DNA from: Cytophagales bacterium | GTDB lineage: Bacteria; Bacteroidota; Bacteroidia; Cytophagales; Thermoflexibacteraceae | Length of the DNA: 40,189 nt | Assembly: GCA_947457925.1 (NCBI GenBank) | Contig: CANGYA010000012.1 | Span: 1 to 40,189, forward strand | Direction: 5' to 3' | Shown: in pieces, positions 3,705 through 40,175 of the stretch | Position numbering within the stretch: position 1 is the first letter of the stretch | How the letters are laid out: every line of letters starts with the position of its first letter | Position numbers and translations under genes: made by a program | Notes under the pieces: model-generated | The model's input: only the letters and a program-made list of their open reading frames with translations | What the model was told of the DNA's origin: nothing | The model's database searches: none

Positions 3705-5051
3705 CTAATTCTTCGGGGCTGCTTCTCTTTGTGAAGGGCTTACGTTGTCTAGGGTTTGTAACTGGGGCTTTTTGAACCTTATCTTGTAGCCTTTCCAGCC
3801 ATTAAAAGGAAATACTAATTTGTTGAATACCTCAAAGATAATTTTTTCATGTACTAAGGTAGAGTAGTGAAACAAATTGAAATACTCACGCACATCTGAA
3901 CCACTACCACCGCCTAAACCACCTTTGGAGGGTGAAGTACCCATAAGGGGGGCGGGCATATTGAGGGCAAATAGAATTAAACTACTTACTTCTTGGCTGT
4001 CCTCTATGTATGTACCAGAGGTTTCGTTGCGTTTGATAGGGGTAAATTTGATAAGGCTTACTTGTTGGTTCAATTTTTCATCAAACAACATAGGGGCGTA
4101 AATAGGTGTACCTGCGTTTTTTGCCCCAGTGAGCATATCATTAATTTTCGTTTTTACCTCCTTCTTGCGACTTTCTTTCACTTCGGGTTTTTTATCCCAA
4201 TCTTCATAAGTAAGTTTCCAATAACGTGCATCTATTTCTATCAGCATTTCTGCTGAGAATTGGTTGTTCATCAACGCCTTTTTGTACTTGGGAATAGACT
4301 TTGCCCAGTCCAAAGTTTCAGATTTAAATAAACAATGCCATGCCAAATCATTGTAATAGGTATTGACCAAATCGGGTATGTAGGCGGGGTACATGAACAT
4401 TCTTTCACCACCTCTTAGTTTTTGTTGCAAATCTCCTACGGGGTTGTAGGTACGTGAAATCAAAGGATAAGTTTGGGTATAACTGTTTGCTTCTGAGTGA
4501 GCTATTTCCCAGTTGGCGTTTACATAGACTTTTTCTATCACACCATAGCTATTTTGTTTGGAAAAACGGCAATGGGCAGTTTTTTGGATAGACACATTAG
4601 AAATTTTTGTGCCTTCTTTATTGACTACTGCTACAGGAAAAATGTGGTTGAACCACAAGTTATCGTTAGTGGCTTGCATAAGGTATTCGTCCACATTGAC
4701 CATCTCTAAATAGTCGTCAATTTCGGGGTTTACCTGCGGTTCAAATACTTTTTCGTTGCCTACTTTTTTTTCTATACCCAACTCCCAATCTTTGGATAAA
4801 ATTAGTTCTGCTTTGCGGTTAAGGATAGGGGCAACTAAGCCGTTTTCAGTGGCTTGTTCGTAGATTCTTTGGGGTACAAGGTTATCACTGCCCCATGCAG
4901 CTACGTTACCGAAACCGTAGTCTAAGTACGTATCTTTTTTGGGGTTATTAACCGTTTGGTAGGGAACAGGATTGGTAAAATTATCTGCAAAGCTGACAAC
5001 GGCAATAGCCTTGTGGTCATCAAAGAGCCAAAATTCTTGATTTTCTTCCAT
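3705..5051 (-). CDS. phage portal protein (Bacteroidota prophage type)
   Basis: The 448-residue product has the size and character of a portal protein, the dodecameric ring at one capsid vertex through which DNA is packaged. It sits upstream of the neck genes and downstream of a late promoter. Visible features include an N-terminal region with NPKKDTYLDYGFGN, a long helical middle, and a C-terminal block beginning with a Gly-rich loop (GGLGGGSGSD) before VREYFNLFHYSTLVHEKIIF, like the portal clip-to-crown part of related proteins. Its start codon overlaps the stop of the gene upstream (TAATG), implying translational coupling. Assignment is by general resemblance and synteny, not by an alignment. 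Confidence 0.6.
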   Translation of the reverse strand: MEENQEFWLFDDHKAIAVVSFADNFTNPVPYQTVNNPKKDTYLDYGFGNVAAWGSDNLVPQRIYEQATENGLVAPILNRKAELILSKDWELGIEKKVGNEKVFEPQVNPEIDDYLEMVNVDEYLMQATNDNLWFNHIFPVAVVNKEGTKISNVSIQKTAHCRFSKQNSYGVIEKVYVNANWEIAHSEANSYTQTYPLISRTYNPVGDLQQKLRGGERMFMYPAYIPDLVNTYYNDLAWHCLFKSETLDWAKSIPKYKKALMNNQFSAEMLIEIDARYWKLTYEDWDKKPEVKESRKKEVKTKINDMLTGAKNAGTPIYAPMLFDEKLNQQVSLIKFTPIKRNETSGTYIEDSQEVSSLILFALNMPAPLMGTSPSKGGLGGGSGSDVREYFNLFHYSTLVHEKIIFEVFNKLVFPFNGWKGYKIRFKKPQLQTLDNVSPSQREAAPKN

Positions 5052-9898: not shown

Positions 9899-11533
9899 TT
9901 ACACACTCTCTATCTGCCAATGCTGGCGTTCAAAGTAGTGATAGAGTACACCTACTATCAGCATATCCATTGCTTCGGTGTAGTGGGTGGCGTGCTGCTG
10001 CGGATAGTTCAAATCCTTTTCCAATGTCTTGTCCTTCTCGTAAGAAGTACCGCCTTTGGTGTTCTTGCGTACTACTACCTTTGCATTAGCTACAGCAATT
10101 TCAAAGTCTTGACACCTGTTACGGTTGTAACGCAATTGGATAGGGCTACCCTCTGGTTCAGATAGGAGTTCAGTAAATAGTTTATACCTGTCCTCGTGAG
10201 TAGTTGCTGCCCCAATGTAGATTTTCTCCACAGCAAATTGGTTATTCGTTAAGCCTGTTGTAATCAGCTCTACATAGTTTTCATTGCTATTACCGTTTTT
10301 ACCTTGATACATCGTGTGGTCATAGTAATAATGTACTAACCTATTGGGGTGCTGGGCGTAGGTACTGCCTAACCATTGCGGTAAAGCACTGGCTAACAAT
10401 GGAGGATTGACATAATGCGTATTGACAATGCGTATCCTACCTTGTAGCACCTGTGCAACAATAATGGTACAAATGGCATTGTTGATGTCGCAAGCAATGT
10501 GCAAGGGTTCGTGTGGCAATACATCATAGTCATCAGTATAACCATGAATACTTTGGTTAAAGGCTCTGTAAAAGGCGTGTTCTGCCTGTTTTGCAGCCAA
10601 ATTCAGTACAGACACTCCAAAGTTATATTGGGACAAAGAGGCTTCAAAGTCTAAGATTTTATCTATACCTAAAACATGGATATTGTCCAATGTAGATGCA
10701 TAACCTACATAAAAAGTTTTTTTCCGTAATTCACTTTGCAAAGTCTTTAAGAAAATGACCTGCTTTTCTTCTTGTCTTGTGAGGTGTTCTTTTTTTACCC
10801 ACAAGATTTCTTTTTTTCTTTCTCCTTTTTCATCTTCTGTTACTACCTCTTTGGGTACATACTCCAACAACATCAAGGCTTTGTAGATGTGCAATAAGTC
10901 TTGTAACCTTTGCAAGTTATCGGGTTGCTTGTAGGGTTGTTCAAAGTGGTACACCCACTCTTGCGAGGGGCTTTGTGGTCTATCTGTAACCAGTAACAAA
11001 GCACCATGCCAAGGGCAATAGCCAAATTTATCTTCATTACCCCTAACAGCTAAGTAAATCTCTTTGAACCTATCTTCTTTGATAAGTCGTGCTTCTTCGA
11101 CTACGAACCAATCCAAGTTACTGCCGTTGTGGGCAGTTTCTGCGGACAAGATGTAAAAACCACTGCCATTATAGAAAGATACATAATGCTCAAAATCTTT
11201 GGCTTTTCGGGGGGCATTAAAACCCTTGTCTTTCCATTTGATAGGTGGTTTTTTGCCTATCACATAGTGTTCACCTTCTACATAGCCAAACTTTTCAAAG
11301 GTTTTGTAGATACCTGAAGTAATCTTGCCTTCGGTGGCATAACTGGGAATCAGCAAGCCCCCTACACTACGAGGCATTGCGAGTAAATAATTGAGCAAAC
11401 TAAAACCTGTAATGCCTTCGGTTTTACCTGTTCCCCTGCCAAAGATACAAAGGGCTATTTTGCAGAGTAAAACATAAAAAACTAACTGGGGCTGGTTGGC
11501 GTGTATCTTTTGCAATTCTTCTGAGTATTCCAT
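9899..11533 (-). CDS. phage terminase, large subunit
   Basis: The 544-residue product is the DNA-packaging motor ATPase and nuclease. The N-terminal ATPase has Walker A GRGTGKT at residues 32-38, a Walker B-like LDWFVVEEA at 140-148 (the usual Asp-Glu is Glu-Glu here) and a coupling motif LLLVTDRP near 173-180. The C-terminal RNase H-like nuclease shows HIACDINNA (first Asp), YYYDHT (second acidic residue) and TEAMDMLIVG near the C-terminus. It lies after the small-subunit candidate and before a terminator. Placement after, rather than before, the capsid genes is unusual. Confidence 0.9.
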   Translation of the reverse strand: MEYSEELQKIHANQPQLVFYVLLCKIALCIFGRGTGKTEGITGFSLLNYLLAMPRSVGGLLIPSYATEGKITSGIYKTFEKFGYVEGEHYVIGKKPPIKWKDKGFNAPRKAKDFEHYVSFYNGSGFYILSAETAHNGSNLDWFVVEEARLIKEDRFKEIYLAVRGNEDKFGYCPWHGALLLVTDRPQSPSQEWVYHFEQPYKQPDNLQRLQDLLHIYKALMLLEYVPKEVVTEDEKGERKKEILWVKKEHLTRQEEKQVIFLKTLQSELRKKTFYVGYASTLDNIHVLGIDKILDFEASLSQYNFGVSVLNLAAKQAEHAFYRAFNQSIHGYTDDYDVLPHEPLHIACDINNAICTIIVAQVLQGRIRIVNTHYVNPPLLASALPQWLGSTYAQHPNRLVHYYYDHTMYQGKNGNSNENYVELITTGLTNNQFAVEKIYIGAATTHEDRYKLFTELLSEPEGSPIQLRYNRNRCQDFEIAVANAKVVVRKNTKGGTSYEKDKTLEKDLNYPQQHATHYTEAMDMLIVGVLYHYFERQHWQIESV

Positions 11534-14901: not shown

Positions 14902-15861
14902 TTAGGGAAGTTCATTGGCAAAGGTTTCTTCGTAATCGTGGAAACCGACACCAGCCCACCAATCGGACTTGATGTCCACACCATCACGCAAAGTAGTTGA
15001 GTCTTTAATAATAAATCCGTCTGTTTTCCGTTTGTAAAGTAGTACGGCATTGCCTTCGGTACTTGTCCAAATTCTTTGACTGCCATTCATTGACGGCAAA
15101 CCAATGACCGAACAATTAGGGAAGTCTTGAATTTTGGCTAAGTCTGTTATTTGGGCGTAGTGCATATTGTACTTTTCTCTACGTCCCATCTGGTAGCGAA
15201 GCTCTAAATCTTCACTCATTCTTAGCCATTTGAGAGCCTTTCTGAACTTGGCGGGCAAAGCTGCATACCACGCCTCTATTTGTTCCACAAAAGTTTTAGG
15301 GTCTGTACTCCATGCTCCCGATGGTACGGTAACAATCAAACTCCCTGTAATACCATCTGCGATAATCTTTCCAAAGCCATTCATTGATTGATTGGCTGCG
15401 TTAGGTGTACCTGAAGTAGGGACTGTATAAACACCTTTATAAATGGCTTTTTCTTCGAAGTCCTCATTCTTTTTTGCCAAAATATGATTTTCCAACAACC
15501 ACTTGACTACAGGCCACTGTTTGCGGTCAAGGTCTTTGGCTGCTAAAAAGCCAGCCCATGATGCCTCAATTACATCGGGGTTCAAGGAGACATCAATTTT
15601 TTGTTTATACAAAATAAATTTATTGGGTGTAATTTCCAAATCGCCTTTGGGTGTGAAGACATCTTGGTAACTTTGTAGCACTTCGCCTAATTCGGAGTTT
15701 GCACCTTCATAGACAGTAGAATCTGTTTCGAGTACTGTCAAGGTATTGGCGGTGGCTTGTTCAGTACGGTACATTTTTTTGCGTAAATCTTTGAGGCTTT
15801 GCGTACCAGGGCGGTACAAAGCCCCATATTCAGCATTCAAGCTGGCAACTGATATGGACAT
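14902..15861 (-). CDS. phage major capsid protein
   Basis: The 319-residue product follows the prohead protease-scaffold gene, the classical order. It has the mixed alpha/beta character and size of capsid proteins, a polar N-terminal arm, and late segments such as NCSVIGLPSMNGSQRIW and VDIKSDWWAGVGFHDYEE, which resemble the A-domain and C-terminal strands of capsid proteins from Bacteroidota phages. It is the shell subunit of the procapsid. The assignment rests on synteny and general resemblance; no membrane segment or enzymatic motif is present. Confidence 0.75.
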   Translation of the reverse strand: MSISVASLNAEYGALYRPGTQSLKDLRKKMYRTEQATANTLTVLETDSTVYEGANSELGEVLQSYQDVFTPKGDLEITPNKFILYKQKIDVSLNPDVIEASWAGFLAAKDLDRKQWPVVKWLLENHILAKKNEDFEEKAIYKGVYTVPTSGTPNAANQSMNGFGKIIADGITGSLIVTVPSGAWSTDPKTFVEQIEAWYAALPAKFRKALKWLRMSEDLELRYQMGRREKYNMHYAQITDLAKIQDFPNCSVIGLPSMNGSQRIWTSTEGNAVLLYKRKTDGFIIKDSTTLRDGVDIKSDWWAGVGFHDYEETFANELP

Positions 15862-15918: not shown

Positions 15919-16860
15919 TTAATAGCCGTACTTTTTGTCGTAGTCTTGGTTGTGTGGCAAGGTGCTTAGGTACGCCTCTAATTCTTCGGGCTTGTCGAAA
16001 TTGTAGCTTTGAGGCGTATTGTCTGCCAAAGGTTTTTCATCTCCTTTTTTCTGCGGATTGCCCTTGATTTTGGCAATTTCTGCGTCTTTACTTTCAAGGT
16101 CGGCTTTGTATTGGGCTAACTCTGTGTCTTTAGCAGCCAACTTATCGTTGTATTCTTTTTGGGCGTGTGCCAAAGAAGTTTCTTTATCAGTTACCTGTTT
16201 TTGAAGTTCCTGCATTTTAGCATGAAAACTCTCCACTTCGTCGGCACTAAAAGTTACTTCATTCTTGTCATTGACATTTGGGCTTTGCTTCATGCCAATA
16301 AATGCACCTACGGCGGCGAGGGCATTCATAAAACTAATTTTCATGGGTAAAAATTGTTTGGGGGTGGGTGTGGAAATGTTGTGTGAAAGGGGGGCTAACT
16401 CCGCAAAGAAACTTTTGAGGTGCTGGTTACTGTCATCAAATTCCAGTTTAACCGCATTGGCATATTCGGGAATACCCACTACCGAAATTTCAAGGATTTC
16501 AGAAGCTAAAATGCTTTTAATGCGTTGTTGTTTTTTGCCTTCGGAATCGGTGTAAGTTTCGGCATCTACCAAAAGGGGTTTGATAGTAATAGAGGCACCA
16601 CTTAGAAAGTTGTTTTGTACTTTTTCGGCTACTTTTGCCCCCAGCTCGTCTGTTTCATCAAAAACAGCATCTGCCAACAACTGATTGCCTACTAATCGGA
16701 TATTTTCCCAACGACCAATCGGCAAATTAGCTGCTTGGTAGAGATGGTTGTAATACATCACAGGGTTTTTGCGAAATCTATCTAACTGAATACCAGTTAG
16801 TACAATGTCATAGCCCCTGCCGTTCACACTACTATCACACACAATAAAAGTGTGTGGCAT
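15919..16860 (-). CDS. prohead protease fused to a scaffold domain
   Basis: The 313-residue product combines two parts. Residues 1-140 are an HK97-type prohead protease: candidate catalytic His39 (YYNHLYQAANLPIGRW), Ser87 or Ser90 (FLSGASITIKP) and Glu in EILEISVVGIPEYANA (121-135). Residues 190-265 are a long coiled coil rich in Lys, Glu and Ala, as in capsid scaffolds, followed by a short acidic C-terminus. The enzyme cleaves scaffold and capsid proteins during head maturation. It is the first gene of the head operon and is preceded by the late-type promoter P2. Confidence 0.85.
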   Translation of the reverse strand: MPHTFIVCDSSVNGRGYDIVLTGIQLDRFRKNPVMYYNHLYQAANLPIGRWENIRLVGNQLLADAVFDETDELGAKVAEKVQNNFLSGASITIKPLLVDAETYTDSEGKKQQRIKSILASEILEISVVGIPEYANAVKLEFDDSNQHLKSFFAELAPLSHNISTPTPKQFLPMKISFMNALAAVGAFIGMKQSPNVNDKNEVTFSADEVESFHAKMQELQKQVTDKETSLAHAQKEYNDKLAAKDTELAQYKADLESKDAEIAKIKGNPQKKGDEKPLADNTPQSYNFDKPEELEAYLSTLPHNQDYDKKYGY

Positions 16861-17489: not shown

Positions 17490-18035
17490 TTAAAAAACAA
17501 AAAAAGATGACACCTGTACGGTGTCATCTTGGGGTTGGGGGTGGGCAAAATTGGAGGCTTTGTAAGGTAGGTACACAATCTTTCCGTTTCGCCTGACTGC
17601 CTGTAAGATTTGCTTGCGGGGTTTACGTTTGGTCGTGTAACTGACGTGAACCCAACTAAAATCAAATTCATTGATGAGCTGGTCATACGGAAGGTCAAGG
17701 GCAATGATAGTGTCAAATAGTTTTTTGTTGCCCGCCTTCAAGTCCTTTTCATCAGGAATTGTCATTTCGATATCCGCTGCTTCGCCTCTGATATGTTGGC
17801 TGTTTTTGCTGCCCCCAATCATTGTGTTGAGTGCCAAACACCTATAACCAGAGTTAATGTCTATCGCCTGTCCAACGGCATCTCGTAAGGGTTGCAAGAT
17901 ATTCACACACAACGCCCTTAGATTGTTAATAACTTGAATGGGCGGGGTGAATTGCTGTTGCAAACCGAATCGGGTAGCTGCATTAGACTTCAGGAACTCT
18001 TGCAGCATGAAATTTTTGCTTAATCTTAGAGTCAT
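17490..18035 (-). CDS. phage endolysin, peptidase M15 family
   Basis: The 181-residue product has the zinc-binding signature of M15 D-Ala-D-Ala-type peptidases: SQHIRGEAADIE with His81 and Asp88, and WVHVSY with His130. The first 60 residues contain the usual helical lead-in (LSKNFMLQEFLKS), and NSGYRCLALN precedes the motif. The enzyme cleaves peptidoglycan stem peptides in the periplasm to release phage. No signal peptide is seen, so export needs a holin; the gene starts 12 bases after the candidate holin-like gene. Confidence 0.85.
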   Translation of the reverse strand: MTLRLSKNFMLQEFLKSNAATRFGLQQQFTPPIQVINNLRALCVNILQPLRDAVGQAIDINSGYRCLALNTMIGGSKNSQHIRGEAADIEMTIPDEKDLKAGNKKLFDTIIALDLPYDQLINEFDFSWVHVSYTTKRKPRKQILQAVRRNGKIVYLPYKASNFAHPQPQDDTVQVSSFFVF

Positions 18036-18601: not shown

Positions 18602-18638
18602 CCTTGTTAGGACCGGGCGTAAGCCCTGCCTAACAAGG
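18602..18638. terminator. stem-loop with GGGC-GTAA-GCCC apex, copy 1
   Basis: Outer stem CCTTGTTAGG with CCTAACAAGG, inner stem GGGC-GTAA-GCCC, T-runs on both sides. It stands between the Cys-rich gene and promoter P4 and probably works as a terminator. Confidence 0.7.
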
Positions 18639-18663
18639 AGTTTTTTACATGGACTAATTTGTC

Positions 18664-18961: not shown

Positions 18962-18997
18962 CTAAAAGGACATGGGCGTAAGCCCTGCCTAACAAGG
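18962..18997. terminator. stem-loop with GGGC-GTAA-GCCC apex, chimeric copy
   Basis: The inner GGGC-GTAA-GCCC stem is intact (18974-18985), but the left flank (CTAAAAGGA) matches the copy at 19806 while the right flank (CCTAACAAGG) matches the copy at 18602, so the outer stem no longer pairs. A T-run follows. Confidence 0.6.
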
Positions 18998-19003
18998 GGT
19001 TTT

Positions 19004-19399
19004 TTATCGTTGTTTAGATTTTGCAAAGTCATGATGTACATTTCTCAAGAACAAACCAAACTTGTCTTCTTCGTAATACTTCCTTAAATTCTCCAAATGG
19101 TATTCTGCGAACCATTTGTAGTAGTAGTAGTGCCTTTTGCGAAAAGGGTATATGTTGCGAACAGCAACCTTGTAAGTCATTACAAATCTTGTTTGTCTTG
19201 TTTTCTCGTCAAATCGTGTTGTAAAAGCACAATCTACAACATAACCATAACGAAAACCGTATTTTTTAACTACTACATTCTCTCCTTTGTAATGCCTAAA
19301 ATTGTGATAATTGGCTAAGTATTCACAAAGTTTTCTATCAATTGGGTGAGCAAAATTGTAAAAATTCACCCCAAATTTTTCTCCTGTAAATGCTTTCAT
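19004..19399 (-). CDS. unrecognised basic protein, paralogue of its upstream neighbour
   Basis: The 131-residue product is basic and very rich in Tyr and Phe. A central block (YKGENVVVKKYGFRYGYVVDCAFTT, split here as YKGENVVVKK and GYVVDCAFTT) aligns with YKNEKVLVKT and GIIEECAYTT in the gene just upstream, and a second block, HYYYYKWFAEYHLENL, aligns with KWYYESELIKL. The pattern resembles small SH3-like barrels. Function unknown. The genes are separated by only two bases between stop and start. Confidence 0.55.
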   Translation of the reverse strand: MKAFTGEKFGVNFYNFAHPIDRKLCEYLANYHNFRHYKGENVVVKKYGFRYGYVVDCAFTTRFDEKTRQTRFVMTYKVAVRNIYPFRKRHYYYYKWFAEYHLENLRKYYEEDKFGLFLRNVHHDFAKSKQR

Positions 19400-20621: not shown

Positions 20622-21527
20622 TTACTTTTTATTGGTCATTTTGTCGTAATACTCTTTTAGCTTTTGAGCCTGTGAAGTAGTAGGCGGAACTGCTGTAGCT
20701 ACATGGATACTGGGCGTAGGGGCTACGGTATTGTCTGGTAATACGTTTAATAACAAATTGAATAACAGACTTTTACAGTGCTTATTCCATAAATCATTGA
20801 GTAGCTTCAGATGCCTCTCCATGATAGCCTCATACGCCTTTTTGGGCAATAGCAACTGTACGGTTTTCTCTCCTACAAACTGCAAAGCAAACTTTTTGAG
20901 GTAGTCTGCCAACGATGCCTGTTGTGTGGCTAACTCGTCTAACAAGTCTGCCCAACGTGCCTGTAAGGTAGCTTGTGGGCTAAGGGTAGCTTGTTTGTTC
21001 AACTGTGCCAACAAATCTTTGGCAGTAGTATTAGCACTGCGGTAATGGTTTTGAATTTCTAATTGCCAAACAGCAAATAATTCGTTGATATACACCAAAT
21101 TACCTCTTTCCAAACTGGCTACTGCTTCGGGAGTAAGGCTAAAATTGGCGTACATATATTTGATGTTATCTTCGGTGTACTTTTGCGAAAAAGACACTGT
21201 AAATAGCAATATATCTTTCGTTTTGTCTTGTCCGTCCACCAGGTACACCCTAAAACCTCTTACTAATTCGGCGTACATCTTACCTGCGTGCAAGCCTTTT
21301 TTCTTGGTGGTGGTTAATATGCGTTTGGCAAAAGAGGTTTCTAACCTCTCCCAAAGCTCTTTATTTGTGTTGGGTAGTTTGCCACTATCGTAGCCATGTT
21401 GGGTTCTGTTGCCGTCTAACCACTCAAATTCCCATCTCCAAACACTCCCCTGCCTTGTAAACTTACCAAAACCGTTGCCCATGCGTTGTGCTAATCCTAT
21501 GTTTTGGGTTTGCTTGCCGTTGTTCAT
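20622..21527 (-). CDS. unrecognised 301-residue protein behind a repeat-rich upstream region
   Basis: The ATG at 21527 is chosen because the longer frame (to 21644) runs through the repeat-rich upstream region. The product starts MNNGKQTQNIG and continues with a strand-like region (VWRWEFEWLDG) and, from residue 130, long helices. The C-terminal 40 residues are Pro/Thr-rich followed by a helix. No family is recognised. The upstream region holds an operator-like 23-mer and six GAAACA motifs, which points to a regulator, replication-related or early protein. It is separated from neighbouring genes by more than 300 bases. Confidence 0.5.
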   Translation of the reverse strand: MNNGKQTQNIGLAQRMGNGFGKFTRQGSVWRWEFEWLDGNRTQHGYDSGKLPNTNKELWERLETSFAKRILTTTKKKGLHAGKMYAELVRGFRVYLVDGQDKTKDILLFTVSFSQKYTEDNIKYMYANFSLTPEAVASLERGNLVYINELFAVWQLEIQNHYRSANTTAKDLLAQLNKQATLSPQATLQARWADLLDELATQQASLADYLKKFALQFVGEKTVQLLLPKKAYEAIMERHLKLLNDLWNKHCKSLLFNLLLNVLPDNTVAPTPSIHVATAVPPTTSQAQKLKEYYDKMTNKK

Positions 21528-21864
21528 AATTGTAAATATTTTAAGTAATTGAAAATCAATAAGTTGTAAAATAGCTGCAAATTTTCGTTTGCTTGCGACT
21601 GTTTCGAAACATTTAGGAAACAGGTGAAACAAGTATCGAAACATGAAACACTTGAAACACGAATGATAAACACTTGCCGACTAATTGAAACAGTCTGGCT
21701 GCGTCAAAAAAAAATAAAGGCAATACCGTCCCACCCTCCTAAAATTTGGACTTTTTTAGGGGTGTCAAGCCGTTTTTCGGGCTTCCTGTGTCCTTTTGGC
21801 GGGTTCGGGGCGTGTCCAATTTCGCCCCTACTACGGCTAAAAGCTATGGTTGTAAAGCCCAGTT
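21528..21864. promoter_or_regulatory. regulatory region with operator-like site and GAAACA repeats
   Basis: It has no gene. A 23-base sequence at 21543-21565 (AAGTAATTGA... ending AATAAGTT) resembles the TGATAATCA operator palindromes. GAAACA occurs at 21606, 21617, 21626, 21638, 21645, 21654 and 21687, starts 7 to 12 bases apart except the last. Right of that the sequence becomes GC-richer without obvious features. Confidence 0.5.
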
Positions 21865-22251
21865 TTAGGCACTGGGCGAAGGGAAGTTTTTTGTATGCTG
21901 TGTTTCACTTAACTTCCCAGCCTTGTTAATATGATTTACTCTTTGCAACTCCTCAATCATTGCCGATGAAAGTTCTATTTTCATCGGGTTTACGACACCG
22001 TATTTGATTAATACATTTTGTTCGTAAGCACTGAGTTTGATGGTTTTGGGTTTTATCTTACGTTTTTTATCCAACTTCCACTCACCCTGCATTTTAGTAT
22101 GGTATCTATTGACAAATGCTATTAGAATAAAGTATTCCAATTCTTCTTGGTAATCTAAGAGTTTGTGTAGGCGTTTATAGTCTAACCTGCCTATCCACTC
22201 TAAGAGTACCTGTAAGACAAACTCCGCCTGTTGTGGGTTTTCTATTTTCAT
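21865..22251 (-). CDS. unrecognised 128-residue protein
   Basis: The product is basic and helical. Its start codon overlaps the stop of the membrane-protein gene upstream (ATGA type overlap), so the two are translationally coupled. The middle (WKLDKKRKIKPKTIKLSAYE) is strongly basic, suggesting nucleic-acid contact. The C-terminal 20 residues may be disordered. No family recognised. Confidence 0.5.
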   Translation of the reverse strand: MKIENPQQAEFVLQVLLEWIGRLDYKRLHKLLDYQEELEYFILIAFVNRYHTKMQGEWKLDKKRKIKPKTIKLSAYEQNVLIKYGVVNPMKIELSSAMIEELQRVNHINKAGKLSETQHTKNFPSPSA

Positions 22252-23336
22252 AGCTCTTTCGGGTTAGTGGTTCTGACTGGTTCTAAAACGACTGCGGGTT
22301 TACCGTTGATGTAATAACTCCTATACTTCGGCTTTTCGGTTTTCGGAGGTTCGGCTACCGAACTTTGCACAGAACAAGCCGAAAGAAAACCGAACAAAAA
22401 GACAAATGGCACACCTACCGAATTGAGTTTAATGCCATTCATAATCGTAGTTTCAGAAATACTCTCTACCTGCCCTTCGGAATTGGTCGTAACGGTCTTT
22501 TCCTTTACGGTTTGCAGTTCTAACCACCTGTTATAGAGAGCTGTGGTAAATGCACTTTTATGTGTGCCTCTGCCTACAAGCTGGTCAAGTTTATTGAAGC
22601 TCATCTGATTAGCTACCTGTAGGTAGATGTCTTTGAAGTAGGGTATAAGATTTTCGTACCTTTTGTAAAACTCTTTCGCATCTATTTCCCTAAACTTCGG
22701 GGTGTGGACTATGTGTATTTCGGGAAAATCTTTTTTCGGTGTATTTACCGAAACTACCGAACTTTCCGAACCGAACCCTGCCGAACCTTCGGCTACGGTT
22801 TTTTCTTTCACCTGTGCCACTACTTCAGTAGGGGCGGGGAGTGTCTGGCGGCTCTCTACTTTCATGTATAAAAAGCCTAATGCCTCTATACACACAAAAC
22901 TAATGAGGTTGGCAAACTGGAAACTTCCTTCTATATGTAGCCGTACATCTGTGTCGGCTATGCTCTCACAAGAGAAGTGTATAAATATCATGTTATAGAA
23001 AAATGCCAAAAAGATGACTGCCCAAAACACCCAAACCAAGTTACCTATGAACTGGCGTGATATGCTATTAGAGAATGCCATGATGACTACGGCATACTCT
23101 ATGACTATAGGTACGGCAAAGGCTATCATGCCTCGCAATACGTTGAACAAGTCTTTGCCCCAATATTCCACTATCATTCTTTGGGTAATGCCTAATGTGA
23201 TAAATAGCCCAATAGCTATTCGCAAAATAATACCTGTATTCTTCAAATTTTTAAAGATAGAGAACTGAATTTTTTGCAAAAATTCGCCTATCTCGTTGGT
23301 GTTTAGTTGTATGTTTGCTATATTTGTCCTGTTCAT
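22248..23336 (-). CDS. multi-pass membrane protein with lipoprotein-like C-terminal segment
   Basis: The 362-residue product has four predicted membrane segments in residues 30-160 (IILRIAIGLFITLGI; FAVPIVIEYAVVIMAF; LVWVFWAVIFLAFFYNMIF; LISFVCIEALGFLYM), then a soluble part. An in-frame Met299 at 22442 starts a segment with a hydrophobic stretch ending in LSAC (GVPFVFLFGFLSAC), the lipobox pattern of lipoproteins, followed by a Pro-rich tail. That segment could be translated alone as a 64-residue lipoprotein. Function is unknown; a spanin, superinfection-exclusion or membrane-signalling role are all open. Confidence 0.55.
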   Translation of the reverse strand: MNRTNIANIQLNTNEIGEFLQKIQFSIFKNLKNTGIILRIAIGLFITLGITQRMIVEYWGKDLFNVLRGMIAFAVPIVIEYAVVIMAFSNSISRQFIGNLVWVFWAVIFLAFFYNMIFIHFSCESIADTDVRLHIEGSFQFANLISFVCIEALGFLYMKVESRQTLPAPTEVVAQVKEKTVAEGSAGFGSESSVVSVNTPKKDFPEIHIVHTPKFREIDAKEFYKRYENLIPYFKDIYLQVANQMSFNKLDQLVGRGTHKSAFTTALYNRWLELQTVKEKTVTTNSEGQVESISETTIMNGIKLNSVGVPFVFLFGFLSACSVQSSVAEPPKTEKPKYRSYYINGKPAVVLEPVRTTNPKEL

Positions 23337-23363
23337 AATGACTAATCGTTTAACGGTTGGTAT

Positions 23364-23392
23364 AGCCCCGCTACTTGCCCAGTTGCGGGGCT
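23364..23392 (+). other. GC-rich stem-loop with plus-strand T-rich tail
   Basis: AGCCCCGC pairs with GCGGGGCT, followed on the plus strand by TTGTGTTTTTT. It lies between two minus-strand genes. Confidence 0.5.
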
Positions 23393-23401
23393 TTGTGTTT
23401 T

Positions 23402-23890
23402 TTAAGAATAAGAAATAAAGTCGTCCATTTCACTCACCAAATCTGGGCATTTACTTTTCAAGCATTCGTAATCTTCACTAGTTAGAGCTTTGTAGTTTTC
23501 AACAATTTTCTTGTAGAGAGATATGAGCTTTTCTTTTTCTGCTTTGATGCTTTCTATGACTTCTTCTTCTGTCATTTCATGGTAAATTTTACTCTTTCTT
23601 ATTAACAAGATGTCTGTATATCCTGTGTATTTTGGAAACAACTTATCTCTCATCAATTCGTATATATAAGAGGAAGTAGACTGTTTCAACACTATTCCAA
23701 TAGGTTTATAAATACTATTTGAAAAATGAATGGTCATGGAGTAGTCAGAAAAATCGTCATCTGACTCAAATTCATAACCCTGCTGGATACCAAACCCTTT
23801 AATTTCATTGGGCATTTGTTTTTTGAGTTGTATAACTATCCTTCTTGTCAATAAGGGTAGGTTAGGTATTATCATTGCTTGCTTGCTCAT
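23402..23890 (-). CDS. unrecognised 162-residue protein
   Basis: The product is acidic toward the C-terminus, with a long helix at residues 105-145 (EEVIESIKAEKEKLISLYKK). It overlaps the upstream gene by 29 bases. No signal peptide, membrane segment or known motif. Part of a five-gene co-directional run (24574 to 21865). Confidence 0.5.
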   Translation of the reverse strand: MSKQAMIIPNLPLLTRRIVIQLKKQMPNEIKGFGIQQGYEFESDDDFSDYSMTIHFSNSIYKPIGIVLKQSTSSYIYELMRDKLFPKYTGYTDILLIRKSKIYHEMTEEEVIESIKAEKEKLISLYKKIVENYKALTSEDYECLKSKCPDLVSEMDDFISYS

Positions 23891-24233
23891 GGTTTTTAGT
23901 CTGCGGTTTTAGTGTTCTTGTAAAAATTTCGCTGTACTCTATCTTCACATTTTCCAGTAACGACAGCAATACAGGAAAATACTTTTCTATTACGTCCATT
24001 TCGGGTTCATCTAAGTACACCTCTTTGGTGATACCTGCGTAAACTGTGATAGGACTTTCGTAATTGGGATACTCAAACAACTTCCGATACGTTTTCGGTA
24101 GCATGGTTTTTCTATCAAAATCTTTATAGACGTAGGTGTACTCTTTCACTTCGTAGCCTAATTCTTTCTCTTTTTGAAGACTTGCTCTGAACTCCCCCGA
24201 AAAAATTATTCGTTTCTTACCTCTTTCCATCAC
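23862..24233 (-). CDS. unrecognised 123-residue protein
   Basis: The ATG at 24233 overlaps the stop of the gene upstream (ATGA), indicating coupling. The N-terminus is basic (MMERGKKRIIFSGEF) and the middle contains strand-like segments with many aromatic residues. No family recognised. Confidence 0.5.
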   Translation of the reverse strand: MMERGKKRIIFSGEFRASLQKEKELGYEVKEYTYVYKDFDRKTMLPKTYRKLFEYPNYESPITVYAGITKEVYLDEPEMDVIEKYFPVLLSLLENVKIEYSEIFTRTLKPQTKNHEQASNDNT

Positions 24234-24574
24234 ATACCTCCTTCGGCTACTGCCTCCAAAAAGAACCTCTCTTGCTCTGCCTGTGCTTTGGGTATGCGAG
24301 GTAATGGTGCGGGCAATACCTGTTGCACCGTAATAGCCTCTATACCCTCTATGCGTAAATAGCCTTGTTTGATTTGGGATTTCACCCAGTTTCTGTCATA
24401 AGACCTTCTGCGTAGTTCAGACCCCCAAGCCACTAATCCAATTTGGAGGTAATTCATTATTTTTTCTTCTTCGAATAACTCCAACATATCTGGAGTTATT
24501 TTGACTTCCTTCGTTACACCACAGTTGGGGTAAATAGGATTGTCAAAAATGTACATCACGCTGCCCACGTTCAT
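24230..24574 (-). CDS. unrecognised 114-residue protein, first gene of a five-gene run
   Basis: The product has YPNCGVTKEVKITPDML near the N-terminus and a basic middle (SELRRRSYDRNWVKSQIKQG), followed by a Pro/Ala-rich C-terminus. It may bind nucleic acid but no fold is recognised. It lies just left of the tRNA region. Confidence 0.5.
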   Translation of the reverse strand: MNVGSVMYIFDNPIYPNCGVTKEVKITPDMLELFEEEKIMNYLQIGLVAWGSELRRRSYDRNWVKSQIKQGYLRIEGIEAITVQQVLPAPLPRIPKAQAEQERFFLEAVAEGGM

Positions 24575-24645: not shown

Positions 24646-24669
24646 CTGTAGCATAGACTTTAGTCTGTG
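24646..24669 (+). repeat. dispersed 24-bp palindromic repeat, copy 2
   Basis: Begins CTGTAGCATAGACTTTAG. It lies 74 bases left of the tRNA. Confidence 0.8.
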
Positions 24670-24742
24670 TTTTGGTGGGTGAATATTAACTGTGGGCAAA
24701 ACCCACAGCCAATATGAATGACAATTACACAGTAAGCTTTTG

Positions 24743-24815
24743 TTGCGGGGGGCGGACTCGAACCGCCGACCTTTGGGTTATGAGCCCAATGAGCTAACCA
24801 CTGCTCCACCCCGCT
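24743..24815 (-). tRNA. tRNA-Met (CAU), initiator type
   Basis: Minus-strand cloverleaf of 73 bases: acceptor 3' side CCCCGC, D-arm GAGC/GCTC, anticodon loop CTCATAA, T-arm with TTCGAGT. The three G-C pairs in the anticodon stem (GGG/CCC) and an unpaired first acceptor position (A1 opposite A72) are the hallmarks of an initiator tRNA. CCA is not fully encoded (followed by CA). It lies inside the prophage-like gene array, flanked by copies of the 24-bp repeat, one ending two bases from its 5' end. Confidence 0.9.
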
Positions 24816-24816
24816 G

Positions 24817-24877
24817 TTCTGTAGCATAGACTTTAGTCTGTGCTTGCATTACACAGACTAAAGTCTATGCTACAGAA
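24817..24877. repeat. inverted pair of the 24-bp repeat (copies 3 and 4)
   Basis: Copy at 24819-24842 and its complement at 24852-24875 form a 26-bp hairpin with a 9-base spacer. It sits immediately upstream of the tRNA, where its promoter would be expected. Confidence 0.85.
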
Positions 24878-24884
24878 TACTTTA

Positions 24885-25202
24885 CTACAGTCCTAAGGAC
24901 TTACAACCTATGATATTGCCTTTTGCATCTCTTACGAGTTCTGCGGGAACAAGCAAGTCGACTCTTTCGTACAAGGCATTTTTTACTACTTGCGACACGA
25001 TGTAATACACTCCTGGCTTGTAATCTGGCAACCCTTCTGGTTCTCCAAATTCATTTTGGGAAACAGGCGTACCGTCTTGTAAGGGTTCTAACCTTACTGT
25101 TTTTACGGCAAGGCGAATTTGGTCGCCTCTTTCGTAAGTTTTCACTAAATTGTTGTTCTCATCTACGATGTGAACGTCATGCGGTGTTTTGTTGATAACC
25201 AT
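24885..25202 (-). CDS. small conserved phage-type protein
   Basis: The 105-residue product has NKTPHDVHIVDENNN at the N-terminus, YKPGVYYIVSQVV in the middle, and DLLVPAELVRDAKGNIIGC near the end. I recall this NLTPH...LVPxxLVRDxxGxIxGC pattern from small proteins common in prophages and mobile elements, of unknown function. It supports assigning the DNA on the right side of the tRNA to the same element. Its 3' end lies 7 bases from the repeat hairpin. Confidence 0.6.
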   Translation of the reverse strand: MVINKTPHDVHIVDENNNLVKTYERGDQIRLAVKTVRLEPLQDGTPVSQNEFGEPEGLPDYKPGVYYIVSQVVKNALYERVDLLVPAELVRDAKGNIIGCKSLGL

Positions 25203-25444: not shown

Positions 25445-25585
25445 ACTCACACACTTCCGCACCGCTATCGTTGATATAAAAAAGTAGCTGAATCATAAAA
25501 CAAACAAACTTTTCAAAAATACCCTGCCACCACCAGTGGCAGGCTAAACCATACATTTATGAACAATTAAACCAAAACCGAAACT
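25445..25585. other. intergenic region with a stem-loop
   Basis: CCTGCCAC (about 25523) pairs with GTGGCAGG. No gene. Confidence 0.4.
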
Positions 25586-25789
25586 CTATGTACATTTCTT
25601 TTTTGCGTTACAAAAATTGCTTTCGCCTTTGCGTTCTTCCCACCGTTTGTCGATAATCCCTTTGTAGTGAGTCATTTCTTCCTGTACTTCGGGGTTCTCT
25701 ACTATCGGTATCCACTTATGCAGCAACTTGGCTATTTTCGCCAGTCCTACTTTTGGTTCTGCGGTCTTTTTCTCTTTGTTTTTCATCAC
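25586..25789 (-). CDS. unrecognised small basic protein
   Basis: The 67-residue product is basic (Lys-rich), with KIAKLLHKWIPIV as a possible amphipathic helix. It overlaps the end of the upstream gene by 74 bases, which is long, so one of the two could be spurious. The pair lies next to the divergent repressor region, where early phage genes are expected. Confidence 0.4.
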   Translation of the reverse strand: MMKNKEKKTAEPKVGLAKIAKLLHKWIPIVENPEVQEEMTHYKGIIDKRWEERKGESNFCNAKKKCT

Positions 25790-25952
25790 TTAGTTCATAT
25801 TGTTTTGTAATTGTACTAAGATTAGAGAGTGCATATACCATCTGCTGCTTTACATACCAAAGAAATGCTTTCCTGTCCGCCCATGATAAATTATGCGTAA
25901 TAGCATAATGCAACTCTTTTAATATTCTGATACTATAGGACTTCTCTTGCAT
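25716..25952 (-). CDS. unrecognised small protein divergent from the repressor
   Basis: The 78-residue product has a helical N-terminal part with AITHNLSWADRKAFLWYVK and a basic C-terminus (EKQREKDRRTKSRTG). It starts 169 bases from the repressor start in the opposite direction, the place of the first early gene in a phage switch. It could be a Cro-like or an anti-repressor-type protein, but no HTH is obvious. Confidence 0.45.
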   Translation of the reverse strand: MQEKSYSIRILKELHYAITHNLSWADRKAFLWYVKQQMVYALSNLSTITKQYELSDEKQREKDRRTKSRTGENSQVAA

Positions 25953-26121
25953 ACTTTTATTGACGTTATTTAAAGTATTACTTGCATACTTATATACAAC
26001 GCTGTATATTTGTATGACTTAATGACATTACAAATGTCAAAAATGAAAATCACTTTTGCAAATAGATAATCATTTATTTTCAAAATTTTTTTATCTTTTT
26101 TACAACTAAATGATAATCAAT
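25953..26121. promoter_or_regulatory. divergent switch region between early gene and repressor
   Basis: Two palindromes stand out: ATATACA-ACGC-TGTATAT (25992-26009) and TGACATT-ACA-AATGTCA (26023-26039). A leftward promoter is possible (TTG, 19 bases, TACTTTAA) overlapping the first palindrome. TGATAATCA (26111-26119) abuts the repressor start. The arrangement is what a two-way lysogeny switch would look like. Confidence 0.55.
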
Positions 26122-26628
26122 ATGTTACTTGGAGAAAAAATAAAGATACTTGCCGAAAAAAGAGGTATTGAAACCCCAGAATTGGCAATCAAAACGGGAA
26201 TTAGCACTACAACCTTGTATCGTATTTATAATAGAGATACTTGCGAAGTTGAACAATTAAAGAAAATAGCATCAATTTTGGGTGTTACACCTTCGTATTT
26301 TTTGGAAGACAATAACGATTTTGAAAATCAAAATCCTGTTTTAGAAGTCAAAAATGACACAATCATTCTCGAAACGAAATTCAATAATGAGTTTTATGAG
26401 AAACTTCTAATAGAAAAAGAAAGGTCTATACAACGTCTTGAAAAGGAGTTAGAAAGGTATCAAAAACGGGAAGACGAGTTTTTTAGTAATATAAAAGACC
26501 TGATTAAGCAAAACGGTAATAGTGGGGGTTCGCTGGGAAAGTTGCTTGAGATAAGAGATAGCCAACCTGCCCCTGCCAAAGTATTTAAAGTTTTGGGCGA
26601 AAGAATGTCTGAAACGGTAGGGAAGTAG
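26122..26628 (+). CDS. XRE-family phage repressor with C-terminal coiled coil
   Basis: The start at 26122 is preferred over 26110 because the TGATAATCA palindrome overlaps the earlier ATG. The product has 168 residues. Residues 5-57 form an HTH domain (RGIETPELAIKTGISTTTL, then LYRIYNRDTCEVEQ and ASILGVTPSYFLED). Residues 90-130 are a coiled coil (EKERSIQRLEKELERYQKRE), probably for oligomerisation. No peptidase domain is present, so it is not a LexA-like self-cleaving repressor; induction would need another route. It is the divergent partner of the early genes and probably the lysogeny repressor. Confidence 0.7.
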   Translation: MLLGEKIKILAEKRGIETPELAIKTGISTTTLYRIYNRDTCEVEQLKKIASILGVTPSYFLEDNNDFENQNPVLEVKNDTIILETKFNNEFYEKLLIEKERSIQRLEKELERYQKREDEFFSNIKDLIKQNGNSGGSLGKLLEIRDSQPAPAKVFKVLGERMSETVGK

Positions 26629-27086: not shown

Positions 27087-28028
27087 TTATTTTTTCTCTA
27101 CAACCTTCTCTTTTTTACCAAAAATAGAGAAATGAACATACTTTTTCGGTTGTTCCTTCAAGTCTATGAACAATTTGTCTAAATCTTCTAAGGTTTTGTT
27201 CAAGTTGTTGTAAAGAGAGTCATTGTAAACCAATTTGCCTGCCGAGCCTTTTTGTTGGTTAATGGCTGTCATGGTTTTGTTCAATTCGCCTAATAAAACA
27301 TTGGCTTTGTTAACTGTACCCGCCATTTTAATTGCATTCAAGGAGTCTGCAAAGGTGTTCATCTTGACTAAAATTGGCTCAAGTTTCTTTTGAGAGGCTA
27401 CCAAATCTTTGGAAATGATGGCTGCATTGTCCGTAATTTGTTTAATATTTTGGCGGTTGTCCGCAGCTATTCCATTGAAATTTGCCGTCATGTTTTGCAC
27501 ATTCGTCATAATCTTGCGGACTTCGCCACTCATGCCTTGATATTCGGCTAACAAAGCATTGAGATTACTTGTAATACTGTCTATGCTATTCAACATAGGC
27601 TCGGCTTTGCTACTCAAAATACTCATCATGTCTTGCAGTGTGCCAGCCACAAGGGTATCGCCAGCGGCAATTTCTTTTGTCCCCTTCTTAATGTCCAACA
27701 CGATACATTTTGTCCCCAAAACCCCCGTAGAACCTAAGTAGGCAGTAGTGGCGTTGGTCAGTTGTATATCGTCATTCACAGAGATTGTAACAGCCAGCTT
27801 GTATTGTTTGTTAGGCAACAAGGCTATTTTACTTACTTGCCCTACTCTTAATCCACTGATTTGCACAGGATTAGAAAGAGTCAATCCGTCTAATTTATCA
27901 TATACTATCACGTATTGGTTGGTAGGAGATAAAAAATTCATTCCCTTCAAATAATTGAATCCGTAGTAAAGGATAACAAAACAAGTGATTGCTAAAATGC
28001 CGACCTTAGCTTCTTTTGAGATTTTCAT
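27087..28028 (-). CDS. MCE-domain (MlaD-like) lipid-transport protein
   Basis: From ATG 28028 the product has 313 residues. An N-terminal membrane anchor (VGILAITCFVILYYGFNYL) precedes the MCE domain (residues about 35-120, with LSNPVQISGLRVGQV and TAYLGSTGVLGTKCIVL), followed by a long helical region (120-310). Proteins of this family form periplasmic rings that shuttle phospholipids between the membranes with an MlaFE ABC transporter. No mlaE or mlaF is seen here. The gene has a consensus promoter (28105-28136) and is the first chromosomal gene next to the prophage. Confidence 0.85.
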   Translation of the reverse strand: MKISKEAKVGILAITCFVILYYGFNYLKGMNFLSPTNQYVIVYDKLDGLTLSNPVQISGLRVGQVSKIALLPNKQYKLAVTISVNDDIQLTNATTAYLGSTGVLGTKCIVLDIKKGTKEIAAGDTLVAGTLQDMMSILSSKAEPMLNSIDSITSNLNALLAEYQGMSGEVRKIMTNVQNMTANFNGIAADNRQNIKQITDNAAIISKDLVASQKKLEPILVKMNTFADSLNAIKMAGTVNKANVLLGELNKTMTAINQQKGSAGKLVYNDSLYNNLNKTLEDLDKLFIDLKEQPKKYVHFSIFGKKEKVVEKK

Positions 28029-28104
28029 ATTGTTGTTGCTTCGTGTTTTCTGTGGTGTTCCCTGCAAGATAACGGATAAACGGGGTGCTATGTTGAGGTT
28101 GTGG

Positions 28105-28136
28105 CAAAAATATAGATTTAATATTTGTAAAACAAA
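28105..28136 (-). promoter_or_regulatory. consensus promoter of the MCE gene
   Basis: On the minus strand TTTG, 20 bases, then TATTTTTG. Useful as a host-type reference for the phage-type promoters. Confidence 0.75.
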
Positions 28137-28263
28137 CACGAAGCATTAGTAAGGGAAGTTGTTATCAGTTGTGAATAACAGCCCAATAGGACTAATATAT
28201 GCACAACCTATTTTTCTACTACAACGATTTTTTGTGTATCTTTACTTCAAGACTACAACGGTT

Positions 28264-28917
28264 ATGATAAAAAGACCTTTTGAACAATGGTTGTCGGAAG
28301 ATGTAGAAATTGAGTTTGGGATTCAGCAAGTGAAAAATCTACCTACATTAGCTAACTGGCTTGCAGTAAAAAATGAAAAGCCATTACCTACAGACATAGA
28401 AAATCTACGCAATAGCCTATTTGATAATGTAACAACGTGGAACGAAGATGAATTAAAAATGCTATTCATAGCACCTTTTCTACTACATTTTGGCTTTAAC
28501 AATCCACCTCATTATAGGGTTTTTACACAACGTCTTTTTACTTTACAAACCCCCACTGTGGAGGCATCTGGTAAAATAGAATGGTTTGTAGCTTTGGGTA
28601 AACAAACACCTAAAAAGCCTTTTTTCTTCTTGCAAGAATATAAACCAGAAAAAAATGCGGGCAATGACCCTTTGGGGCATTTATTGATAGCTATGGTAGA
28701 TGTGCAACTACTGAATGATAATCTTACCCAACCTTTATATGGTTGTTATATCATTGGCAGGCTTTGGTTTTTTGTGGTCTTAGAAGGAAAAGAATATTGT
28801 GTAAGCAGAGCCTATGATGCCACCCAAACAGATGACCTAACAGCTATGGTAGAGATTTTATACCGAGTAAAAGAGCATATTCATCAAGAATTAGGCTTGC
28901 CCGAAGTGGTGCGGTAA
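28264..28917 (+). CDS. unrecognised protein with a possible PD-(D/E)XK nuclease-like core
   Basis: From ATG 28264 the product has 217 residues. It contains VALGKQTPKKPFFFLQEYKPEK and then NDPLGHLLIAMVDVQL; the QEYK element with a following DPxGHLL helix resembles the E-x-K half and helix of restriction-endonuclease-fold proteins. The catalytic Asp earlier in the chain is not certain (candidate E in EASGKIEWFV). The rest is not recognised. It stands alone with its own promoter-like TATCTTTA. I recall similar proteins in multiple copies in Cytophagales genomes, but this was not checked. Confidence 0.45.
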   Translation: MIKRPFEQWLSEDVEIEFGIQQVKNLPTLANWLAVKNEKPLPTDIENLRNSLFDNVTTWNEDELKMLFIAPFLLHFGFNNPPHYRVFTQRLFTLQTPTVEASGKIEWFVALGKQTPKKPFFFLQEYKPEKNAGNDPLGHLLIAMVDVQLLNDNLTQPLYGCYIIGRLWFFVVLEGKEYCVSRAYDATQTDDLTAMVEILYRVKEHIHQELGLPEVVR

Positions 28918-40102: not shown

Positions 40103-40175
40103 TAGTATTCAAGAAGTTCTCTAAAGATGTCATCTTTTGAAAAGATGACATCTTTAGAGAACTTCTTGAATACTA
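40103..40175. repeat. 73-base perfect palindrome
   Basis: Arms of 36 bases (starting TAGTATTCAAGAAGTTCTC) mirror each other around a single G at 40139. Inside, AAAGATG(T/A)CATCTTT occurs twice and is itself palindromic. No gene in the surrounding 200 bases. Confidence 0.85.

Follow-up and report, generated by a model that had tools for sequence, protein, structure and literature searches.

The window analysed here, the whole of contig C12 (40,189 bases) from a presumed Bacteroidota draft assembly of 4.86 Mb in 329 contigs that is 96.9% complete, carries an initiator-type methionine tRNA gene among phage genes. This raises the question of whose gene it is: an initiator borne by the phage, a host tRNA captured along with nearby repeats, or a host tRNA marking the site at which the prophage integrated. 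Our preferred reading, with a probability of roughly 0.72, is that a temperate tailed phage carries the tRNA as an accessory gene, which is expressed with the early operon and adds to or replaces the host initiator pool. Its observed grounds are the location of the gene, its intact initiator determinants, the presence of one other initiator gene in the genome and its recurrence in related prophages.

ARAGORN found a single tRNA in the window, a tRNA-Met (CAT):

24742..24815, minus strand: initiator-type tRNA-Met (anticodon CAU), A1·A72, no encoded CCA (ARAGORN, Rfam)

Rfam model RF00005 matched it with 64.9 bits against a cut-off of 29 bits, and it folds into a cloverleaf of -31.9 kcal/mol. 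The 1:72 pair is mismatched (A1·A72), the A11:U24 pair is present in the sequence, and three G-C pairs at 29-31/39-41 enclose the CAU anticodon (GGGCTCATAACCC). A preliminary description had already assigned initiator features to the gene, and these were borne out by ARAGORN, Rfam, the A1·A72 and A11:U24 pairs, the three G-C pairs and the anticodon. The initiator-type identity is well supported; the function we infer. According to the tables of PMC5143459, A11:U24 is present in 4430 of 4438 bacterial initiators (Table 3), C1 in 4108 (our sum from Table 2) and A1·A72 in 39 (Table 2). A second hairpin lies 3' of the tRNA (24680..24715, minus strand; -19.7 kcal/mol, z -5.5) and may be a processing or termination structure.

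The surrounding genes were as follows:

3705..5051, minus strand: portal protein (phrog_11226, 4e-9; 43% identity to the prophage of genome G001)
9899..11533, minus strand: putative large terminase (by position; 39% identity to the G001 prophage)
14902..15861, minus strand: putative major capsid protein (named from its place behind the protease; 48 of 291 order genomes have a relative, with 69 matches listed, and so do 37 viral loci)
15919..16860, minus strand: prohead protease (phrog_80, 1e-7; Pfam Peptidase_S78)
17490..18035, minus strand: endolysin (phrog_894, 6.8e-42)
20622..24574, minus strand: genes downstream of the tRNA, probably early (ORFs without credible family matches)
24885..25202, minus strand: small phage gene directly upstream of the tRNA (phrog_30542, 2.7e-23)
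25586..25789, minus strand: small early ORF of 67 aa, overlapping the next (ORF only)
25716..25952, minus strand: small early ORF of 78 aa (ORF; no credible Pfam match)
26110..26628, plus strand: HTH regulator, divergent from the early operon (PF13443, 5e-11)
27087..28139, minus strand: MlaD, the first host gene on the right, marking the right limit of the prophage

The names capsid (14902-15861) and terminase (9899-11533) come from gene order and related prophages, not from family matches, and are putative; the terminase candidate had no match in PHROGs or Pfam. Proteins related to the protease were found in Porphyromonas and Elizabethkingia phages, and no relative was found when the protease was used as a viral probe. 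An endonuclease (phrog_16945) is also among the phage genes left of the tRNA. On the other side, the gene at 24885-25202 has viral relatives at 67% and 40% identity; they lie in two viral contigs, with no tRNA in the contig stretch examined, and among the 291 sampled genomes of the order the gene was found in the window's own genome only. The HTH regulator is likely the phage repressor. All genes tested from 27087 onward are of host type (MlaD, ExbB-like, GHL10, diacylglycerol kinase and SurA-like). MlaD was present in 13 of 13 genomes of the family, the window's own included, and when five MlaD stretches were compared with the window, MlaD matched in all five, the gene after it (28159-28917) in one (33%), and no other window gene in any, so that the comparison did not yield an empty integration site. 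With phage genes to either side of the tRNA and the first host gene at 27087, we place the tRNA inside the prophage, the left end of which is outside the window. The preliminary description had seen phage-type genes on both sides; this holds on the left, but on the right they extend no further than about 26.6 kb. Two further repeats were noted in the window: 33-nt direct repeats at 18615-18647 and 18974-19006 (97% alike, 359 bases apart), and a perfect 36-nt inverted repeat with a 1-nt gap at 40103-40175, which stops a few bases short of the contig end and may be a terminator or a fold-back from assembly.

The genome has 42 tRNA matches above the Rfam cut-off, and the 30 typed by ARAGORN include one other initiator, at position 45421 of contig C1. 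A DNA search of the whole assembly with the tRNA part matched contigs C1 and C12 only. The second initiator is flanked by genes for an Era-like GTPase and a DAO oxidoreductase, and because of these neighbours we regard it as the host gene. The count of initiator genes called for in the preliminary description thus gave one beside the prophage copy, with host-type neighbours, and the prophage tRNA is additional to a host gene for the same tRNA. The two copies are alike at 64 of 74 positions (86.5%) and differ at the other ten. Three chromosomal initiators compared among themselves showed 90.5-95.9% identity. The 1:72 pair is C1·U72 in the chromosomal copy versus A1·A72 in the prophage copy; in the anticodon loop and the three G-C pairs the copies do not differ.

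The 3' ends of tRNA genes are common phage attachment sites. The tRNA might be a host gene marking such a site, with the prophage on its 3' side only; this integration habit and the position of the tRNA, about 2.3 kb from MlaD as the first host gene, speak for this, as do two prophages of genome G019 (contigs C14 and C10) in which host-type genes start shortly past the HTH gene adjoining the tRNA. Against it, the 14-nt 3' motif of the tRNA, sought with up to one mismatch, had no other copy in the window, the prophage left end lying beyond it, and at the search sensitivity used the tRNA part matched nothing else in the draft assembly except the chromosomal initiator. The duplicate of the tRNA 3' end that the preliminary description had proposed to look for at the left end of the prophage was therefore not recovered in either, and with no second copy found, the tRNA is not a detectable attachment site. 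Among the adjacent genes tested there was no integrase match, and among the window genes tested no integrase or transposase match, the only trace being a sub-threshold integrase-domain match at 7811-9226. Phage genes also continue past the tRNA, with the gene at 24885-25202 and the HTH gene beyond it, and in related prophages the tRNA lies inside, behind early genes. We consider an attachment-site tRNA highly improbable.

Short repeats surround the tRNA. They share a 22-base core, GTAGCATAGACTTTAGTCTGTG, a short palindrome with a GTAG end:

24648..24669, plus strand: GTAG-type REP, single copy, on the 3' side of the tRNA (exact copy of the core)
24821..24842, plus strand: REP copy 2 (exact copy of the core)
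24852..24873, minus strand: REP copy 3 (exact copy of the core)
24817..24877, no strand: paired inverted REPs (BIME-like) with 26-nt arms and a 9-nt spacer, directly before the tRNA 5' end

The three copies agreed with what had been described before, and so did the inverted pair 2 bases from the tRNA, its left arm starting at 24817 and the tRNA 5' end lying at 24815. The pair occupies the space between the tRNA and the gene at 24885-25202 and would form an RNA hairpin of -44.7 kcal/mol (z -12.5). Across the genome the core was matched 240 times with up to one mismatch (117 forward, 123 reverse) against none for a reversed-pattern control, often as inverted pairs. Other window copies, in host and phage DNA, lie at 2670, 32788 and 33344, the last with 2 mismatches. 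Within the family, a genome of the same genus had 36 copies and two others 28 and 9, and the remaining 9 of the 13 genomes had none. The earlier view that repeats frame the tRNA was right in that they occur far beyond chance, but they are genome-wide and not specific to it.

In their GTAG end, short palindrome, high copy number and inverted pairs, these repeats fit the GTAG REP class, as described for GTAG-type REP and BIME repeats (PMC3733652). For a linked RAYT gene flanked by the repeat, we looked at the genome's three Y1 transposase genes. Copies with 3 or fewer mismatches were absent from the 1.5 kb around each of them; when 5 mismatches were allowed, the 3.3-kb stretches scanned had one site with 4 and one with 5, both near the gene on contig C80, which is preceded by different palindromes. 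The hairpins are probably later insertions of a host repeat family. That flanking repeats captured or moved a host initiator into the prophage, the explanation prompted by REPs on both sides of the tRNA, is hardly credible: the 240 matches include host and phage DNA away from the tRNA, no copy lies within 1.5 kb of the chromosomal initiator (locus L002), the two initiators differ at ten positions, and such tRNAs occur in prophages of other families (G293 and G019) while the REP was not found in 9 of the 13 genomes of the window's own family.

We then come to the recurrence of the tRNA. A strict pattern for initiators with a purine at position 1 was applied to 390 genomes of the order and 275 of the class (265 of them new), 655 distinct genomes in all. 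It matched once each in 4 of the 390 order genomes, a count that leaves out initiators not fitting the strict pattern, and gave no further match in the class sample. All four (4 of 655 genomes) lie in prophages: that of the window and those on G293:C3, G019:C14 and G280:C1. By PHROGs the G293 prophage has HTH repressor, transposase, primase and phosphatase genes, and its capsid and terminase match those of the window at 38% and 26%; the G019:C14 prophage matches at 27% for the capsid, 25% for the terminase and 31% for the nuclease. The window and these two prophages share an arrangement of an HTH regulator, a divergent operon of one to three small genes and then the tRNA, and in both relatives, as in the window, the initiator is A1·A72 and stands beside the HTH repressor. 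The HTH proteins of the window and G293 are 41% identical over 73 aa, and that of G019:C14 matches HTH_3 and Phage_CI_repr and is followed by a host-type CBS/PALP gene, so the prophage ends there. The G280 prophage carries an integrase, tail fibres and a small terminase; its tRNA is placed differently, between integrase and tail fibre, and no window gene matched the G280 stretches. Around the G293 and G280 initiators, ARAGORN found no other tRNA in 45-48 kb, and about 180 bases from the G019:C14 initiator Rfam gave a second, atypical tRNA match of 43 bits.

Among the matches listed, the G293 tRNA was the best match to the window tRNA after the window tRNA itself, with 66 of 74 positions alike. 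The best matches in the order were C1·U72 in 41 of 57 sequences (53 loci), and the only A·A pairs were those of the G293 and G280 prophages. Initiators in a similar place were also seen in the G019:C10 prophage, with a pyrimidine at position 1 (U1:A72) and an HTH gene by PHROGs, and in the G167:C12 prophage, with C1·C72 by reading and an HTH gene about 2.5 kb away. With the viral relatives of the right-hand gene, the separate host initiator and two related prophages with an A1·A72 initiator beside an HTH repressor, the option of a phage-borne initiator, one of three offered at the outset, gained support. Genome G019 has three initiator genes, on C7 (C1·U72), C14 (A1·A72) and C10 (U1:A72), the last two in different prophages. 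Two G019 prophages also carry a very similar atypical tRNA-like gene (AACCGTATAGCTTAAAAAGTATGGCTTAGAGCG...) at L084:6983-7056, there by Rfam only, and at L425:10792-10868.

The tRNA is not a fixed part of this phage group. From the 69 capsid matches listed we obtained 40 stretches upstream of capsid genes, 5 of them shortened by contig ends. An initiator was present in one (G167) and an odd CAU tRNA in another (contig C29 of the window's genome); two had a single odd tRNA each, one had a cluster of four, and 35 had no tRNA. Among the 37 viral capsid stretches, ARAGORN found two tRNAs, one for Arg and one with a CAU anticodon (L377), and prophages of the same kind on G001:C40 and on contig C226 of the window's genome had no tRNA in the parts available. 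By reading, the viral tRNA (L377:977-1051) has C1·A72 and A11:U24 as in initiators, without the three G-C pairs. Related head genes mark at least two more prophages, or fragments of them, in the window's genome (G000), on C226 (L152) and C29. The latter, a third prophage of the same capsid family, carries the odd CAU tRNA just counted (L436:9662-9735, minus strand), which by reading has G1·A72, U11:A24 and C37; it adjoins a Cro-type HTH gene (9899-10216, minus strand; PF13443), and the divergent gene at 10359-10766 (plus strand) had a weak match (1e-4) to a purpose-built HTH model and no Pfam family. Several candidates were set aside: the sole CAU tRNA in 20 stretches around relatives of the protease (L166) is of elongator type, and so, by reading, are extra CAU tRNAs in relatives (L077, L078, L080 and L081) that first looked like initiators.

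The survey was extended to phages at large by two pattern scans of IMG/VR, which gave 138 stretches (21 + 117). The initiator was the only tRNA that ARAGORN found within the stretch examined in 91 of the 138. There were 63 distinct lone phage initiators, one of them cut off at position 1; C1 was present in 20 of 62 and U1:A72 in 17 of 62, the latter against 63 of 4438 bacterial initiators (PMC5143459). By Fisher test C1 was rarer (p about 8e-32) and U1:A72 commoner (p about 1e-16) than in bacteria, values that overstate the case because sampling, search patterns and hosts were not the same for the two sets and host DNA may be present on some of the viral contigs; the direction, a departure of phage initiators from C1, is clear. 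Lone initiators in the viral loci L112-L132 and L170-L286 were often U1:A72 and sometimes G1·A72 or G1·U72, pairs that are rare or absent in bacterial initiators. An HTH gene was near the lone initiator in 4 of 9 loci versus 4.4 expected, no excess, in a comparison that is weak because HTH was detected in only 9 of 82 loci.

A1·A72 itself occurs more widely. When 84,980 species were scanned for initiators starting with A1, 82 stretches came up. ARAGORN found 81 initiators in the first 80, with A·A in 58, A·U in 15, A·C in 7 and C·A in a single neighbouring gene, and the last two stretches had one further A1 initiator each. Many of the A1·A72 initiators stood in tRNA clusters of Veillonella and Mycoplasma species, so the pair does not mark prophages outside this order and is compatible with a host initiator in use. 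In ten loci that are presumably Flavobacteriaceae, in part judged by genus (L437, L441, L454, L457, L463, L468, L473, L484, L485 and L499), the initiator varied in its first three or four bases and was almost constant elsewhere, with poor pairing left at the top of the acceptor stem; the pattern looks like that of an element integrating at the 5' end of the initiator gene. An identical A1·A72 initiator was seen in L440 and L450, from MAGs of the same DT isolate series labelled Gilvibacter and Oceanospirillaceae, perhaps one phage binned twice.

On the accessory-gene reading, the tRNA sits in a putative early operon, divergent from the HTH repressor, behind two or three small genes and ahead of the remaining early ones. 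Once the repressor no longer acts, transcription of the early genes would take in the tRNA as well; host tRNA-processing enzymes would release it, and it would receive its CCA, be charged with methionine and be formylated. The product would then supplement or replace the initiator pool supplied by the single chromosomal gene, and phage replication would multiply the initiator gene dose. Transcription, maturation, use in initiation and benefit to the phage are the parts of this scheme that we infer. No convincing promoter was found before the tRNA: where 5.4 sigma-70-like sites were expected there were 4, and none of these was on the minus strand; on the minus strand between 24500 and 27200 there was no full TTTG/TAnnTTTG promoter and one isolated TAnnTTTG at 25521. 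This would agree with read-through from the early operon without proving it. Counting against the accessory-gene reading are the lack of a convincing promoter, the structured REP pair directly before the tRNA, the single initiator in 40 capsid-upstream stretches, the G280 tRNA elsewhere in its prophage, the company of the G019:C14 tRNA and the HTH nearness of lone viral initiators, which is not above chance.

A possible, though on balance doubtful, alternative is that the tRNA serves mainly to restore initiation after the host initiator has been cut by a host nuclease, for example a VapC toxin. Such a counter-defence role was proposed for phage tRNAs by van den Berg et al. 2023 (PMC10264068), who cite VapC toxins that cut initiator tRNA, and the ten differences from the host copy would suit it. 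The anticodon loop and the three G-C pairs, however, are the same as in the host copy, so a cleavage site in the loop is unchanged, there is no escape by way of the loop, and protection would need amount or features outside it; according to the same paper, phages generally avoid encoding tRNA-fMet where the anticodon is the target. It is improbable that the tRNA is instead a decaying passenger or has a role other than initiation, such as a regulatory RNA. Its sporadic distribution, the unusual 1:72 pair, the REP insertion at its 5' end and the general departure of phage initiators from C1 would agree with this, but the cloverleaf and the initiator determinants tested are intact and the 1:72 mismatch is kept though both bases differ from the host copy.

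A bolder extension of the accessory-gene reading, to be taken as speculation and improbable, is that phage initiators form a distinct functional class. The initiator core would be kept and the 1:72 end selected to change (A·A, U:A, G·A or G·U for the host C1), so that these tRNAs would be matured, formylated or protected differently from the host's and would give the phage control of initiation; in one prophage group of this order they would act from a place in the early operon that recurs. The rate of protein synthesis is held to be limited by initiation (PMC5143459), and one chromosomal initiator gene was found here; by bringing an initiator, a phage could raise initiation, or rescue it, during growth. 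In this order some such genes are easily spotted by the purine-1 mark, and the shift from C1 poses a testable question of what phages change in a highly conserved tRNA.

Among the open-licence PubMed Central papers listed, judged by title and opening of the abstract, we found nothing on the function of a prophage-borne initiator tRNA, on its 1:72 pair, on a link between purine-1 and prophages, or on loss of C1 in phage initiators. The rare A1·A72 mismatch of the window tRNA is shared with Veillonella, Mycoplasma and other genomes; many of those genes differ in standing in multi-gene tRNA clusters, often with an encoded CCA, and are host genes judging by these two features. The Cellulophaga phage phi4:1 likewise encodes an initiator-type tRNA, 80.7% identical to the window tRNA, but as one of 23 tRNA features in 6 kb, whereas the tRNA described here is the only one in the window. 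The closest parallels are in Sinorhizobium meliloti, where 25 extra tRNAs are reported in prophages and phage-related sequences, fMet (9) and Met (8) being the commonest (PMC11476347); 15 phiLM21-like prophages have single tRNA genes, four of them fMet (PMC12429752), and a tRNA-fMet lies in prophage NV1.1.1 (PMC10460002). The S. meliloti prophages share with the window an extra initiator gene in a temperate phage with no sign of integration-site use. They differ in being alphaproteobacterial phages, and the available excerpts of these reports do not mention nucleotide 1, the 1:72 pair or a place at the side of a repressor. A prophage-borne tRNA-fMet is therefore already published for Sinorhizobium, and what is unusual here is the 1:72 pair together with the recurring place beside the repressor.
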